This document shows, one piece after another, positions 39,092-43,596 of a stretch of 64,000 nucleotides of DNA. How positions within the stretch are numbered: position 1 is the stretch's first letter; each line of letters begins with the position of its first letter. The notes beneath the pieces were generated by a model, which saw only the letters and a list, made by a program, of their open reading frames with translations, had not been told where the DNA came from and searched no databases. The stretch comes from Salegentibacter sp. 24 (GTDB lineage Bacteria > Bacteroidota > Bacteroidia > Flavobacteriales > Flavobacteriaceae): assembly GCF_004362395.1 (NCBI RefSeq), contig NZ_SNWE01000006.1:124001-188000 (forward strand). Direction: 5' to 3'. The translations under genes and the position numbers were made by a program.

Positions 39092-39499
39092 ATGATACTT
39101 CGTGACCTTCAATTAATAGAACTTAGGCCCGAAATTCCTTCAGCCAGAGTTTCAGAAAACATGAGTTTAGACGAACAATTTCAAAATAAAACTTTACGGC
39201 CTATCGCTAAACTTCAGGATGAATTGCTGCTGGAAGTTTTTAGAAATTATACTAAAAAGCACAAGAACAAGTTTTATGAATTAAAACTCGATCAGCGCTT
39301 GGCTTATATTGAAAATGCAATCCAGAAGGATATTAAATTCAGGAATAGTTTAAAGGGCATAATCATAGGACAATTTACTTTAGACGAGTATGCCACTTAC
39401 ATCAAGAATTCTTCAGCATTAAATAAGCGTATGATGAATATTGTAAAAGAGCGTTTACAGAGCAATATTCAACTTTTAGAAGAGGAAGTAGCGTACTAA
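39092..39499 (+). CDS. Small helical conserved hypothetical protein
   Basis: 135 residues, no signal peptide or membrane segment, and highly charged. It has a leading ILRDLQLIELRPEIPSARVS and a helical body (FQNKTLRPIAKLQDELLLEVFRNYTKKHKN, then KLDQRLAYIENAIQKDIKF). Similar proteins in Flavobacteria are sometimes labelled glyoxalase, but no VOC motif is present, so that label is not supported. A perfect 18-bp palindrome sits right before the start. The 3' end overlaps the convergent DUF3307 gene by 24 nt. The function is unknown. Confidence 0.75.
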   Translation: MILRDLQLIELRPEIPSARVSENMSLDEQFQNKTLRPIAKLQDELLLEVFRNYTKKHKNKFYELKLDQRLAYIENAIQKDIKFRNSLKGIIIGQFTLDEYATYIKNSSALNKRMMNIVKERLQSNIQLLEEEVAY

Positions 39500-40210
39500 A
39501 AGACCAATAAGTATAGTGATCGCAAAACTCATTAAGGTTCCTATTAGTACGTATTCCGTTTGTTTTCTTGCGCTTGCATCAGATTTATCGCTAAAGCGTA
39601 AAATAGATTTTGCTGCAATAAGAAATCCTATGGCTGAAAAATTTTGAGTAAGAATAAAGGTTAATACCAGGATTCTTTCAAAAACACCTATATATCTACC
39701 CGCAGCTTCAAGGCTTTGACTTCTTTCACCATTTGATTCAAGTTCATTATGCCAGCGTTGCGTCGCTTTTCCAATTAAAAATCCTGCAGGGAAAATTACC
39801 ATCAAATAACCAGTGATAACAGCTAAGACTTGCAGATTGGAAAATGTTTCGGAAATAAACGGAATCAAATTTGAGAAACCTTCAATAAGATAAATCCATA
39901 CGAAGATTATAATTAAAATATGCCAGAACTGATCTAGTAAAAACAGTTTCAAACTATCGTTTTTATGCCGAAGTTTCCATAAATCGATAAAAAAATGACT
40001 TACACTAATTACAATGGGTATATACCATAGATACCAGTCCTGCAACAAAAGATAAGTAAACAATCCAGCTAAAAAAGAGTGAAAGTATAAAAACCACGAT
40101 CCTTCCTTTTTTTCTCTTTTGTGGTTTATCAGTTTAGCAGGTTGCAGCACAAAGTCGGTTAAAATGTGCGCAAGAATTAGTTGAAGTAAGATTTGGATGT
40201 TTTCTTCCAT
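39476..40210 (-). CDS. DUF3307 membrane protein, partner of SatD
   Basis: From the ATG at 40210 (MEENIQILLQLILAHILTDF) the protein is 244 residues, 2 nt after the satD stop. It has about six membrane helices: LLQLILAHILTDFVLQPAKLINHK is the DUF3307 signature, then LYFHSFLAGLFTYLLL, IPIVISVSHFFIDLWKLRH with a His, LFLLDQFWHILIIIFVWIYLIEG, and later spans. The recurrent H..-D in membrane helices (AHILTDF, SHFFIDL, DQFWHIL) suggests a buried metal- or substrate-binding site, possibly enzymatic. It always travels with SatD in Bacteroidota in my knowledge. A longer start at 40279 would overlap satD by 67 nt and is rejected. Confidence 0.85.
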   Translation of the reverse strand: MEENIQILLQLILAHILTDFVLQPAKLINHKREKKEGSWFLYFHSFLAGLFTYLLLQDWYLWYIPIVISVSHFFIDLWKLRHKNDSLKLFLLDQFWHILIIIFVWIYLIEGFSNLIPFISETFSNLQVLAVITGYLMVIFPAGFLIGKATQRWHNELESNGERSQSLEAAGRYIGVFERILVLTFILTQNFSAIGFLIAAKSILRFSDKSDASARKQTEYVLIGTLMSFAITILIGLLVRYFLF

Positions 40211-40212
40211 AA

Positions 40213-40866
40213 TTAAAAACTCTGGGAGGTCACATTTTCGAAACGTTTTAATAAAACCGAGATTGCCTCCCAGCCACAAGCTTTTTTTCTCTGATTAACT
40301 GCTGATTGGCTAATTTTTAAAATTTCTGCAATTTCGGTTTCTTTCAAACCTTCTAAAAGGTAATAAACCACTTCTGCAGAAGCCTGGCTCCATTTATCCA
40401 TAACGACGTCCAGCAGAAATAAACTCGCTTCAAATTCAGAATTTAAACTCTCTAAAGGGGTTTTCAACCGGATTCTTCTAGATCCATTTTTCATCTCATC
40501 CAAGGTCCTGCCCGAAAATTGAAATGCCTGCCCATTTGATTCGGCTATTGTATCTCCCTTATAATCAAAACTGCCAATACCGATGGCTAATTTTACATCG
40601 CCAAAAGTACTGGAAGATTTTTGCTTCTCTAACCTTACCTTATTAATAAGGCTCTTTAACTTTAGAGCGATTTTTAAAGAATCTTTGTAGCTTGAAATAA
40701 TTCCCTGAAAACTATCGCCTCTGTAGATTTTGAAATCAGTTTCTCCTTTAGCATAGTCCTGCTGTAATTTTTTGAATTCTGAGTTCAAATCTTTAAGAAT
40801 ATTATCTAGAAATACTTCAGTATAATTTGAAGAATTTATTAAATCGGCTGTAATAACGGCTATCAT
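40213..40866 (-). CDS. SatD-family regulator: cyclase/GGDEF-like domain plus HTH
   Basis: 217 residues. The C-terminus (about 174-200: LKETEIAEILKISQSAVNQRKK) is a clear helix-turn-helix. The N-terminal part looks to me like a nucleotide-cyclase/GGDEF palm fold: AVITADLINSS with Asp8 on the first strand, YRGDSFQ with Asp51 on a beta hairpin, LAIGIGSFDYKGD as the next strand pair, and NGQAFQFSGRTL, which resembles the G-A-N-A-A-R-L helix of class III cyclases. That reading is a pattern comparison, not a known annotation. The protein is known only as SatD family. It would regulate its own operon with the DUF3307 partner through the repeats upstream. The -7 box is very close to the ATG, so the transcript may be leaderless. 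Confidence 0.8.
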   Translation of the reverse strand: MIAVITADLINSSNYTEVFLDNILKDLNSEFKKLQQDYAKGETDFKIYRGDSFQGIISSYKDSLKIALKLKSLINKVRLEKQKSSSTFGDVKLAIGIGSFDYKGDTIAESNGQAFQFSGRTLDEMKNGSRRIRLKTPLESLNSEFEASLFLLDVVMDKWSQASAEVVYYLLEGLKETEIAEILKISQSAVNQRKKACGWEAISVLLKRFENVTSQSF

Positions 40867-40870
40867 ATTT

Positions 40871-40896
40871 CAAATATAATGAAAATATTAGTTCAA
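40871..40896 (-). promoter_or_regulatory. Promoter of the satD-DUF3307 operon
   Basis: The minus strand has TTG (40896-40894), a 15-bp spacer and a perfect -7 box TATATTTG (40878-40871). The ATG is at 40866, only 5 nt on, so transcription would begin at or near the start codon. Confidence 0.45.
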
Positions 40897-40898
40897 TG

Positions 40899-40935
40899 AC
40901 TTATATATGCCTTTTATAAGTCTGAAAACTTATAA
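40899..40935. repeat. Three ACTTATA/TATAAGT half-sites upstream of satD
   Basis: ACTTATA at 40899-40905, TATAAGT at 40915-40921 and ACTTATA at 40928-40934. The last two are part of a perfect 8-bp inverted repeat (TTATAAGT, 40914-40921, and ACTTATAA, 40928-40935) with a 6-bp spacer. The set lies just upstream of the -33 region of satD, as an autoregulatory operator would. Confidence 0.55.
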
Positions 40936-41053
40936 TAGGTGATTATAAATCTATAGGCTTATTAAATCAAAATTGCACCGATATTAAATTTTTGCTAAAT
41001 ATTCTTTTAGGCTTAAAAGGTTATTTAAATTTAAAAAAATCAAAAAATATACT

Positions 41054-41503
41054 ATGGTAAGTAATAAAAAAGAACTTTATTTAAATTGCATAAACACTGT
41101 AAATAAAAAAATAGAAAGATATCAAAAGGAAATGGATCTTATAAAGGAATCCATGGAAGCCAACGATGTAAAAACAGATTATGACGAAGATAATAAGGGA
41201 GAACTTTTGGGAGATTTTGAAAAAAATGCCGGCCGGTTGAGCGATGCCCAAGAAATGAAAGAAAGTTTAAGCCGAATAGATCCAGACCATTACAGTGAAG
41301 TCATAGGTTTTGGTAGCGTAGTGGAAACCAGTGGAAACTATTACTTTGTATCAGTACCTATAGGTGAAATTTCTATGGAGGATGGAAGCAGCGTTTATGC
41401 AATTTCTACTGAAGCTCCCATTTATAAGGAAATGGAAGGGAAAAAAGAAGGTGATACTTTTAGTTTTAATAATAAAGAGGTTAAAATTACTGCAATAGGC
41501 TAA
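41054..41503 (+). CDS. GreA/GreB-like protein (C-terminal FKBP-like domain)
   Basis: 149 residues. An N-terminal helical segment (KKELYLNCINTVNKKIERYQKEMDLIKESMEANDVKTDYDEDNKG) is followed by SEVIGFGSVVETSGNYYFVSVPIGEISMEDGSSVYAIST and APIYKEMEGKKEGDTFSFNNKEVKIT. The end (APIYKEM-GKKEGDTF-FN) matches the Gre-factor C-terminal domain, where GK..GD is conserved. The first part replaces the usual coiled-coil finger with a shorter charged helix pair holding DYDED acidic residues. It may bind RNA polymerase, as Rnk and GreB-like proteins do, but no effect is proven. It ends 2 nt from the convergent 7TM-HD stop. Confidence 0.75.
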   Translation: MVSNKKELYLNCINTVNKKIERYQKEMDLIKESMEANDVKTDYDEDNKGELLGDFEKNAGRLSDAQEMKESLSRIDPDHYSEVIGFGSVVETSGNYYFVSVPIGEISMEDGSSVYAISTEAPIYKEMEGKKEGDTFSFNNKEVKITAIG

Positions 41504-41505
41504 AC

Positions 41506-43551
41506 CTATTCCGGATATTCTACTCTAAGGTGAAAAATATTCTTAAGCTTACGTTTAAGGATTTTTTTCACCACTTGTATTTCCTTAAAAGTAATGTTGG
41601 AATTCAAGAACTGTTCTTCCTTCATTTGCTTATTAATTATTTTTTCAACAAAACCATCTATTACGCCAGCGGTAGGTTCTTTTAAGCTTTTGCTGGCCGC
41701 CTCAACACTATCACACATCATTAAAATGGCGGTTTCTTTACTAAAAGGAATAGGCCCGGGATATTTAAAATCATCAGCAACCGCATTATCGTTGTTTTCC
41801 TTTTCTTTCATAAAAAAGAAATACACTGTGGTGGTACCATGATGGGTCCTTATAAAATCGATCACCCGGTCTGGTAGGTTATGTTTTTTGGCAATTTCAA
41901 TCCCGTTAATCACATGATCTGTAATAATCTGAGCACTTTCCTTTGGCGACAATTCATCATGAGAGTTGACAGCAGAAGTTTGATTTTCCGAAAAATAAGT
42001 CGGATTTTTCATTTTACCAATATCATGATAAAGCGCTCCTACCCTAACCAACATTGCATTTGCATTAATTTCATTAGCAGCAGCTTCGGCTAAGTTTGCA
42101 ACATTTAACGAATGATGAAAAGTTCCTGGTGCCTTTTCTGAAAGTTCTTTCAATAATTTCGAATTGGTATCTGAAAGTTCCAGTAGGGACATATCTGATA
42201 CCATTCCAAAAATTTTTTCATAAATGTAAATTAGAGGCTGAACAAATAGGGTTGCCAGACCCCCAAGTAAAAAAGTGAGCAATACTTCCGCTTCCACATC
42301 GGCTATATTTCCTTCCTGGATAACCGTAAAAGCAAAATAAGAAATAATATATACCAAGGTAATTTGCCCTACCGAAATAAAAAGATTTGCCCTCTTATAA
42401 AGTTCTGAAACCGTTAGAATAGTTACTATTCCGGCAATAATTTGCAGAAACATATATTCGTAACTATTAGGCACTATAAAACCTAAAAGTAAAACTGTAA
42501 TGACGTGGGTAAACATTCCTAGCCGGGCATCAAAAAACGCCTTTAAGGTAAGGGGGAGAATACAAAGCGGCACCACATAAACATAATCTATATTAAAATT
42601 TACCACCATTTTGGTAAGCAAGAGCATAAAAAGGATATTAAAGAAAATAAAAGTGACCTTTACATTATTATCAAAAATTTCCTGCCTATATTTTCGAATG
42701 AATAAGAGTAGCATTAATAGTGCAAGCGCAACAAGTACGCTATATCCTACAATAATCCACTTGTAATTGCCTTCACTCCAGACCTGGGATTCATATTCAT
42801 TTTTAAGTGATCTGAGAATATTATATTTATTGCCTTCAACAACTTCTCCGCGAGCAATTACTCTACTACCCTGCTCAATACTTCCACGAGTATAAGAGAT
42901 ATTGTCCAGTTTGCTTTGTAGCTCCTTTTGAGTTAAGCTACTATCAAAACTTACATTTGGTTTTATGAGATTAAAAAAAACTTCTAATAACCGGTTCTCA
43001 AATTCAGATACATTGGATTCTTCAATTTCAGTATTTAAGAAATCCCGTACCTGGTCCTGTTTTAAAATATTTTTATAAGCAATTTCAAATGCTTCATTTC
43101 CTTTTCGTAAATAAACAAGCTGGTTATCCTCTATTCGATTATTGGCCTGTAAAAGACCAAACTCATATACATCTTCTAAAGTTTCTTTAACAAAATCAAT
43201 AATTTGATTTTCTTTATTTTTTAGAATACTATCGGGAAAAACTTCTTGAACTTTTTGAGGAACTTCAGATATTACCTGCTTTGGAATTTTCTCGTCAAAT
43301 TGAAAATAGGGAATGTGATTACTAATAATTTGTTGACGTTCTTCTTGTATTTCTTCCTCCGATTTCAAAATTGCGAAATCAAAAGGGGCATATAGATTTT
43401 CATACTGCCAGGGCTGTCCTTTAGGAATTTCATATTTAAAATTTCCTCCTTTGGGAAGTAGGTAAACAATTAGCACCGCAGTTAGGGCAAATAAAAATAC
43501 CTTGTAAAATAATGCCTGGTTTTTATACAGGTTATTTACGAATTTCTTCAT
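41506..43551 (-). CDS. 7TM-HD phosphohydrolase (PgpH-like, likely c-di-AMP phosphodiesterase)
   Basis: Using the ATG at 43551 (MKKFVNNLYKNQ) the protein is 681 residues. It has one N-terminal helix, a large extracytoplasmic 7TMR-HDED domain (about 35-260), seven membrane spans (about 265-460) and a C-terminal HD domain with GTFHHSLNVANLAEAAA, GALYHDIGKM and RTHHGTTTVYFF. This matches PgpH, which degrades cyclic-di-AMP in Firmicutes; the role in Bacteroidota is inferred. The alternative start at 43572 falls inside a perfect -7 promoter box and is therefore rejected. Confidence 0.9.
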   Translation of the reverse strand: MKKFVNNLYKNQALFYKVFLFALTAVLIVYLLPKGGNFKYEIPKGQPWQYENLYAPFDFAILKSEEEIQEERQQIISNHIPYFQFDEKIPKQVISEVPQKVQEVFPDSILKNKENQIIDFVKETLEDVYEFGLLQANNRIEDNQLVYLRKGNEAFEIAYKNILKQDQVRDFLNTEIEESNVSEFENRLLEVFFNLIKPNVSFDSSLTQKELQSKLDNISYTRGSIEQGSRVIARGEVVEGNKYNILRSLKNEYESQVWSEGNYKWIIVGYSVLVALALLMLLLFIRKYRQEIFDNNVKVTFIFFNILFMLLLTKMVVNFNIDYVYVVPLCILPLTLKAFFDARLGMFTHVITVLLLGFIVPNSYEYMFLQIIAGIVTILTVSELYKRANLFISVGQITLVYIISYFAFTVIQEGNIADVEAEVLLTFLLGGLATLFVQPLIYIYEKIFGMVSDMSLLELSDTNSKLLKELSEKAPGTFHHSLNVANLAEAAANEINANAMLVRVGALYHDIGKMKNPTYFSENQTSAVNSHDELSPKESAQIITDHVINGIEIAKKHNLPDRVIDFIRTHHGTTTVYFFFMKEKENNDNAVADDFKYPGPIPFSKETAILMMCDSVEAASKSLKEPTAGVIDGFVEKIINKQMKEEQFLNSNITFKEIQVVKKILKRKLKNIFHLRVEYPE

Positions 43552-43569
43552 ACAAATCGTGCTATTGCT

Positions 43570-43596
43570 CAAATGTACTAAAAAATACCCTCCAAA
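43570..43596 (-). promoter_or_regulatory. Promoter of the 7TM-HD gene
   Basis: The minus strand reads TTTG (43596-43593), a 15-bp spacer and TACATTTG (43577-43570), a perfect -7 consensus. The ATG at 43551 follows 18 nt after the box. Confidence 0.45.

Follow-up and report, generated by a model that had tools for sequence, protein, structure and literature searches.

SatD of Salegentibacter sp. 24 is very probably an autoregulator, in which a class III cyclase-like palm domain is fused to a helix-turn-helix (HTH). The protein is encoded next to a membrane protein and downstream of a periodic array of operator-like palindromes, whose letters vary with the recognition helix of the HTH. In the window, which is the whole analysed stretch of 64,000 nucleotides, satD occupies positions 40,213 to 40,866 of the minus strand (217 amino acids, ATG at 40,866). 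Fold, sites and pairing together point to a nucleotide-responsive protein, and we consider it probable that SatD is a one-component autoregulator of this kind, most likely repressing an operon whose output is the membrane partner. According to this proposal, the minimal palm would bind a nucleotide with metal via D8 and D51, the C-terminal HTH would bind palindromes spaced by 28-29 bp across the promoter of its own operon, and SatD would most likely repress the two genes, the second being a co-translated membrane protein that would serve as output, until the nucleotide state changes. From the fold, the conserved residues, the pairing, the array and its co-variation with the helix, all obtained by computation, we infer that SatD binds DNA and a nucleotide, that it represses its operon instead of activating it and that the partner acts as effector, and likewise a ligand for SatD, the direction of control and the function of the partner.

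The satD gene and its surroundings

The initial annotation had given the interval 40,213-40,935. Its plus-strand frame contains stops throughout, and on the minus strand an in-frame TGA two codons 5' of the satD ATG places 40,935 beyond the limit of the gene; that position coincides with the outer edge of palindrome 2 of the array described below. The motifs named along with the interval are present in the open reading frame, namely D8 in ITADLINSS, D51 in YRGDSFQ, the strand LAIGIGSFDYKGD, the helix NGQAFQFSGR and the HTH.

The nearest named relatives of SatD belong to Salegentibacter (67-82% identity), and the gene was found in all 15 genomes of the genus that were searched. With a threshold of E <= 0.1, the Pfam family SatD (PF16264) was recognised in 68 of 75 relatives, and 45 of 247 genomes contain a match that exceeds its curated cut-off. 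Passages of the literature expand the name as 'secretion and acid tolerance' (PMC11323703), link SatD to acid tolerance (PMC11323703; PMC10326533) and label it a DNA-binding protein (PMC12005413). Full-text searches, with subscription papers mostly outside their scope, returned no description of a cyclase-like palm, an operator array or a core partner of SatD. Among the matches listed for the streptococcal operon there were only unrelated uses of abbreviations, and DUF3307 was found in one phage paper, the pertinent passages of which do not describe a SatD mechanism. For the SatD family, so far known mainly by name, these results provide a predicted fold, a mechanism open to testing and a candidate binding site.

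The divergent neighbour of satD (41,054-41,503, plus strand, 149 amino acids) shows a weak match to the C-terminal domain of GreA/GreB (E 8.3e-4, under the cut-off), and its relatives lie upstream of satD in 2 of 31 other neighbourhoods. At 41,506-43,572 on the minus strand, 640 bp upstream of satD, a 7TM-HD phosphodiesterase-like protein is encoded (7TM-7TMR_HD, 149.6 bits); such proteins degrade c-di-AMP in other systems. Neither a tRNA nor a tmRNA was detected by ARAGORN within the window (1-64,000).

Fold of SatD

The AlphaFold model of SatD, built with 75 sequences (pLDDT 94.0, pTM 0.92), displays a beta-alpha-beta-beta-alpha-beta palm followed by helices at residues 139-216. The palm is composed of strands at residues 2-9, 44-48, 52-57, 91-98 and 132-135 and helices at 17-37, 60-75 and 113-125. 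As delimited by the model and by conservation, the palm domain comprises residues about 1-137 (40,456-40,866, minus strand) and contains the invariant residues D8, D51 and G112. A Foldseek search of the PDB gave 795 matches at E <= 10, and the best 50 of these all belong to the nucleotide-cyclase superfamily with a probability of 1.00 each, namely class III cyclases, domains of the GGDEF type and a single GTP cyclohydrolase III. The best E-value was 3.2e-4, and 7 matches reached E <= 0.001. TM-scores to cyclases by query length were about 0.3-0.44, so that the fold of SatD is related to that of cyclases, yet not close.

In profile alignments with hhalign, the palm scored 43.1 (P 1.5e-6) with class III cyclases, D8 and D51 being aligned with the metal-binding aspartates of these enzymes, and 25.6 (P 0.0012) with GGDEF domains. 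None of twelve column-shuffled controls exceeded 17.8, and the highest score of an unrelated pair, the N-terminal half of the partner against GGDEF, was 19.6. This comparison favours class III cyclases over GGDEF domains as relatives of the palm. The GG[DE]EF hairpin was not found in SatD, which has YRGDSFQ here and TLGDEFQ in the other branch of the family. The palm fold proposed in the initial annotation is thus supported by the predicted structure, its Foldseek matches and the controlled profile alignments, with both metal-binding aspartates of class III cyclases in place, and the GGDEF likeness drawn there proved the weaker of the two.

By sequence alone, the link to cyclases is weak. A single SatD query gave no match among PDB sequences. 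With hmmsearch, profile A1 matched a sigma-factor HTH first (E 0.01) and the cyclase Ma1120 second, with both aspartates in register at an E-value of 0.064 that is not significant alone. Profile A3, built from the other SatD branch, gave 44 weak matches to the PDB, mostly 14-3-3 proteins and no cyclase. At E <= 0.001, just one class III cyclase domain was found in the genome of the window, and GGDEF domains were absent.

Conserved residues and cyclase chemistry

Relatives of SatD (n = 141, with 133 distinct sequences, of which 62 are nonredundant at 65% identity) retain D8, D51 and G112 without exception, and S12, G50, Q54, G98 and W159 are each kept in 140 of 141. Both aspartates are also present in all 62 nonredundant relatives. 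Neither an unrelated fold nor a loss of D8 or D51, the two outcomes that would have contradicted the initial annotation, was therefore seen. An arginine changes place within the family: R49/G119 occurs in 113 of the 141 relatives, L49/R119 in 27 and K49/S119 in one. We posit that an arginine near the nucleotide site may be held at either of two places, 49 or 119.

The N.AAR helix of class III cyclases supplies the transition-state Asn and Arg. The corresponding pattern N.A[ASG]R is present in 24 of 30 true cyclases and in none of the 141 SatDs. Counted from G112, because the profile alignment stops short of the helix, N116 occurs in 0 of 62 and R120 in 18 of 62 nonredundant relatives. The absence of this pattern makes ordinary class III cyclase chemistry doubtful for SatD, and the earlier suggestion that it makes a nucleotide signal, albeit possible, is not the default reading.

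Pycsar and CBASS provide the model of a cyclase-effector pair. SatD could by analogy be an active nucleotide cyclase or another NTP-converting enzyme, whose signal acts on the partner while the HTH sets expression. Both metal aspartates and the S12 loop are kept, the fold matches those of active cyclases, including the uridylate cyclase 8jsz (rank 50 among the Foldseek matches), and the arginine swap resembles an active-site Arg supplied from either place. We nonetheless regard such an enzyme as unlikely, given the missing Asn/Arg pattern. The defence families of PADLOC, moreover, matched SatD only with two CARF3 models over residues 155-196, that is, the HTH stretch (best E 0.0035), and did not match the partner. 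Nor was a sign of phage linkage seen: a phage origin was considered and rejected, as no phage record was found with one relative as query and two scans of viral contigs gave one locus and none.

The membrane partner and its pairing with SatD

The partner gene (39,476-40,210, minus strand, 244 amino acids) starts with an ATG at 40,210, 2 nt past the satD stop. A gene for such a protein follows satD on the same strand in 57 of 60 loci of one set, which includes the locus of the window and counts one gene twice (L019 and L060), and in 81 of 81 loci from scans. Two of the three loci lacking a partner end within 130 bases past satD, and the third (L055) has none in 1,368 bases. In 40 of 81 relatives, the partner gene begins within satD, with 4 nt in common. 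Across 247 Bacteroidota genomes, SatD occurs in 87, the core domain of the partner in 86 and both in 84 (Fisher 1.2e-59). The pairing with a membrane protein, which had been suggested from this locus, is therefore near-obligate. Genomes with only SatD (3) or only the partner (2) are about equally rare, so that no toxin-antitoxin asymmetry is apparent from these counts. At the level of loci, the core lies downstream within 1,500 bases at 90 of 96 SatD places, and SatD is missing upstream at 7 of 98 core places.

Beyond Bacteroidota, the range of the pair includes archaea, Fusobacterium and Alphaproteobacteria. Pairs were found in Methanomethylovorans, Ca. Loosdrechtia, Ca. Omnitrophus and Fusobacterium, and on plasmids of the haloarchaea Halorientalis and Natronosalvus and of Sphingomonas; on Agrobacterium plasmids, an 81-residue core match lies 3' of the annotated satD. 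No further neighbour of SatD or the partner is conserved beyond close synteny, the next family being present in 6 of 32 neighbourhoods. Mangrovimonas spongiae (L087:4603-5306) has an intact satD, while its partner gene is divided between two reading frames, by sequencing error or loss.

The initial annotation had described the partner as a DUF3307 membrane protein with His/Asp residues in its helices. This domain (PF11750, 81 bits against a cut-off of 23) is present and contains the His/Asp residues, yet it is confined to the N-terminal half (residues about 7-121; 39,848-40,192, minus strand), and among ten partners scanned from other loci Pfam detected it in three and not in seven. The shared part is the C-terminal core domain (residues about 166-244; 39,479-39,715, minus strand; GRYIGVFER, AAKSILRF, EYVLIGT), which is common to all 33 partners aligned (alignment A6), with G, E, K, L and G invariant and four more residues conserved in at least 90%. 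Partners carry the DUF3307 half, another N-terminal half (L031, L034, L036) or little beyond the core, the last form measuring 111-149 amino acids in four scanned. No Pfam family covers the core, the only matches being weak ones to DUF4153 (3 of 33) and Kei1 (1 of 33). The model of the partner (pLDDT 92.6) gave no Foldseek match in the PDB below E 1.4, and its profile matched no PDB sequence. A reading of DUF3307 as a metal hydrolase similar to YdjM/DUF457 was rejected; the motifs look alike, but hhalign gave a probability of 1.2% (P 0.043). The 3' end of the partner gene overlaps a convergent ORF of 135 amino acids (39,092-39,499, plus strand) by 24 bp (39,476-39,499); its family occurs in 6 of 32 neighbourhoods, that of the window included.

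Such a partner might also act on SatD directly. The palm would then be a degenerate, ligand-free dimerisation scaffold, and the partner would control a plain HTH autorepressor by sequestering it at the membrane. The charged residues of the core (E, R, K, R), found in all or nearly all 33 partners and persisting even in those little larger than the core, resemble a docking surface, and the partner adjoins 90 of the 96 SatD places. However, D8, D51, G50, G112 and S12 are each missing from no more than one of the 141 relatives from bacteria and archaea, and a mere scaffold would need none of them, which makes this explanation quite improbable. With SatD as a nucleotide-responsive autoregulator, a partner that escapes control might do harm, although the similar rarity of genomes with only one of the two genes gives no sign of it. 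In passages of a study on Streptococcus pyogenes, satD is described as essential for the strains tested, yet only 178 of 249 genomes contain it (PMC11323703). An accessory gene that is nonetheless essential would fit the restraint of a harmful partner, and suggests that the membrane protein could run unrestrained once SatD is lost.

An operator-like array upstream of satD

Three palindromes, which are not assigned to a strand, lie upstream of satD. Palindrome 1 (40,944-40,963) reads AATAAG-N8-TTTATA, with one departure per half, palindrome 2 (40,915-40,934) is a perfect TATAAG-N8-CTTATA with longer arms, TTATAAGT-N6-ACTTATAA, at 40,914-40,935, and palindrome 3 (40,886-40,905), located 29 bp from palindrome 2, reads TATAAG-N8-CTAATA with one mismatch. 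A TATATTTG box follows on the minus strand (40,871-40,878), identical in the genome of the window and 14 genomes of the same genus. It resembles the -7 element of Bacteroidota, for which the consensus is TAnnTTTG. In the same 15 genomes, the TATAAG/CTTATA halves are constant, while the intervening letters vary. The position of the array near the start codon and its adjoining box favour repression; the array could serve activation instead.

The geometry of 6-8-6 bp palindromes with a spacing of 28 or 29 bp is common across the family. The 141 upstream regions contain 165 perfect palindromes with 6-bp arms and an 8-bp spacer, where 20 shuffles gave 20.6 (sd 5.2), and such palindromes occur in 30 of 63 nonredundant regions versus 8 of 126 control regions (6.3%). 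Pairs of like palindromes are spaced by 28 or 29 bp in 63 of 91 cases and by 56 or 58 bp in 21 more. Three-site arrays, taking the better of 28 and 29 bp, were detected at 41 of 62 nonredundant loci, in none of the 126 control regions and in a single one of 310 shuffles; 21 of the 62 loci lack such an array at a consistency of 0.8, and 13 of 62 remain under 0.8 in a looser test. When periods of 20-40 bp were scanned, arrays appeared at 28 bp (23 loci), at 29 bp (18) and at one locus at 36 bp, and the control regions yielded a single array, at 33 bp. Perfect palindromes with the 8-bp spacer are also present at 3 of 4 plasmid loci, two of them haloarchaeal, with the repeat of Natronosalvus 29 bp apart; the Agrobacterium plasmid locus (L063) contained no perfect palindrome. 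The half-sites alternate about every 14 bp, possibly allowing a SatD filament on the DNA.

A wider SatD regulon in the genome was considered and rejected, as the palindrome with at most one mismatch occurs at 20 places versus 62 for a backward control. Among these 20 places, two palindromes lie 29 bp apart only at satD.

Co-variation of the array with the recognition helix

The HTH of SatD was located at residues 174-200 (40,267-40,347, minus strand), in accordance with the initial annotation. Its recognition helix comprises residues 187-196 (40,279-40,308, minus strand), with 189 and 192 as the likely specificity residues. The operator letters differ among lineages (for example, TATTCC, TATCAC, TATCGG, TATAAC and TGTTTC elsewhere), and the positions of SatD tested, up to 204, carried most information on them at residue 192 (z 9.8). 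Palm positions 71 (z 7.6) and 117 (z 7.0) were also informative, which shared ancestry can explain. After correction for palm distance, the distances of operators and recognition helices remained correlated (r 0.485, 0 of 2000 permutations), whereas another helix of this HTH, taken as control, gave a weaker correlation (r 0.256, also 0 of 2000 permutations).

When changes were placed on a tree built from the palm alone, residues 192 and 189 came first and second among 150 positions for changing together with the operator. In 11 of 17 (p 4.5e-5) and 9 of 12 cases (p 5.4e-5), respectively, the residue changed along a branch on which the operator changed too, with p values that are uncorrected for the 150 positions tested. 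No coincidence was seen for 6 of the 17 changes of residue 192 and for 11 of the 22 changes of the operator. Particular pairings recur: E192 with CG at operator places 4-5 (7 of 7), Q192 with a final AG (12 of 13), W191-K192 with TTC (5 of 5), S191-K192 with TCC (5 of 7) and H191-K192 with AAC (3 of 4). The layout of the array is therefore constant across lineages and its letters are lineage-specific, tracking the recognition helix mainly at residues 192 and 189. Direct binding by SatD would predict such co-variation, and the earlier, general proposal that SatD regulates the pair can be sharpened to a putative one-component autoregulator with an HTH and an operator upstream of its own gene.

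We consider it very unlikely that SatD is uninvolved and that the array serves a different regulator or the divergent gene at 41,054. The array does lie between two divergent genes in the window, but around it only SatD and the partner are conserved, and its letters co-change best with residues of the SatD recognition helix. Constant geometry and helix-tracking letters also offer natural material for studies of how proteins recognise DNA and of orthogonal switches. More speculatively, and with little confidence, we envisage an undescribed signalling module of bacteria and archaea, in which a cyclase-fold protein assembles on phased half-sites, senses or converts a nucleotide there through non-canonical chemistry and so determines how much of a membrane channel or enzyme is present, and in which co-diversification of helix and operator insulates the switches of different lineages.

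Comparison with known systems

The closest described family is PF16264 itself, which matches SatD over its full length with 27.9 bits, just under the cut-off of 29 bits that relatives pass. With class III nucleotide cyclases, SatD shares the fold, both metal aspartates and the GD hairpin; it differs in its short palm of about 137 residues, the absent Asn/Arg pattern and the attached HTH. GGDEF diguanylate cyclases have the palm fold in common with SatD, one branch of which carries LGDEFQ at the hairpin, yet the profile match is weaker and GG[DE]EF is lacking.

Pycsar consists of a cyclase and a transmembrane effector. It resembles the SatD pair in that a class III-like fold is found beside a membrane protein, whereas SatD has an HTH and an operator array and is present in each of the 15 genus genomes searched. 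The N-terminal half of the partner is similar to phage DUF3307 membrane proteins, such as that of Ralstonia phage RP12 (TMt 0.72, E 4.5e-3); with 119-131 amino acids each, the best four matches could be aligned to the 244-residue partner over 108-129 columns.

The CHD+LuxR regulators of Actinobacteria are larger than SatD. They demonstrate that the combination of a cyclase homology domain and an HTH in one protein is already known, for example from Rv0386, and, unlike SatD, they carry an HTH of the LuxR type, with no membrane partner or periodic operator array mentioned in the passages that describe them (PMC3466318).
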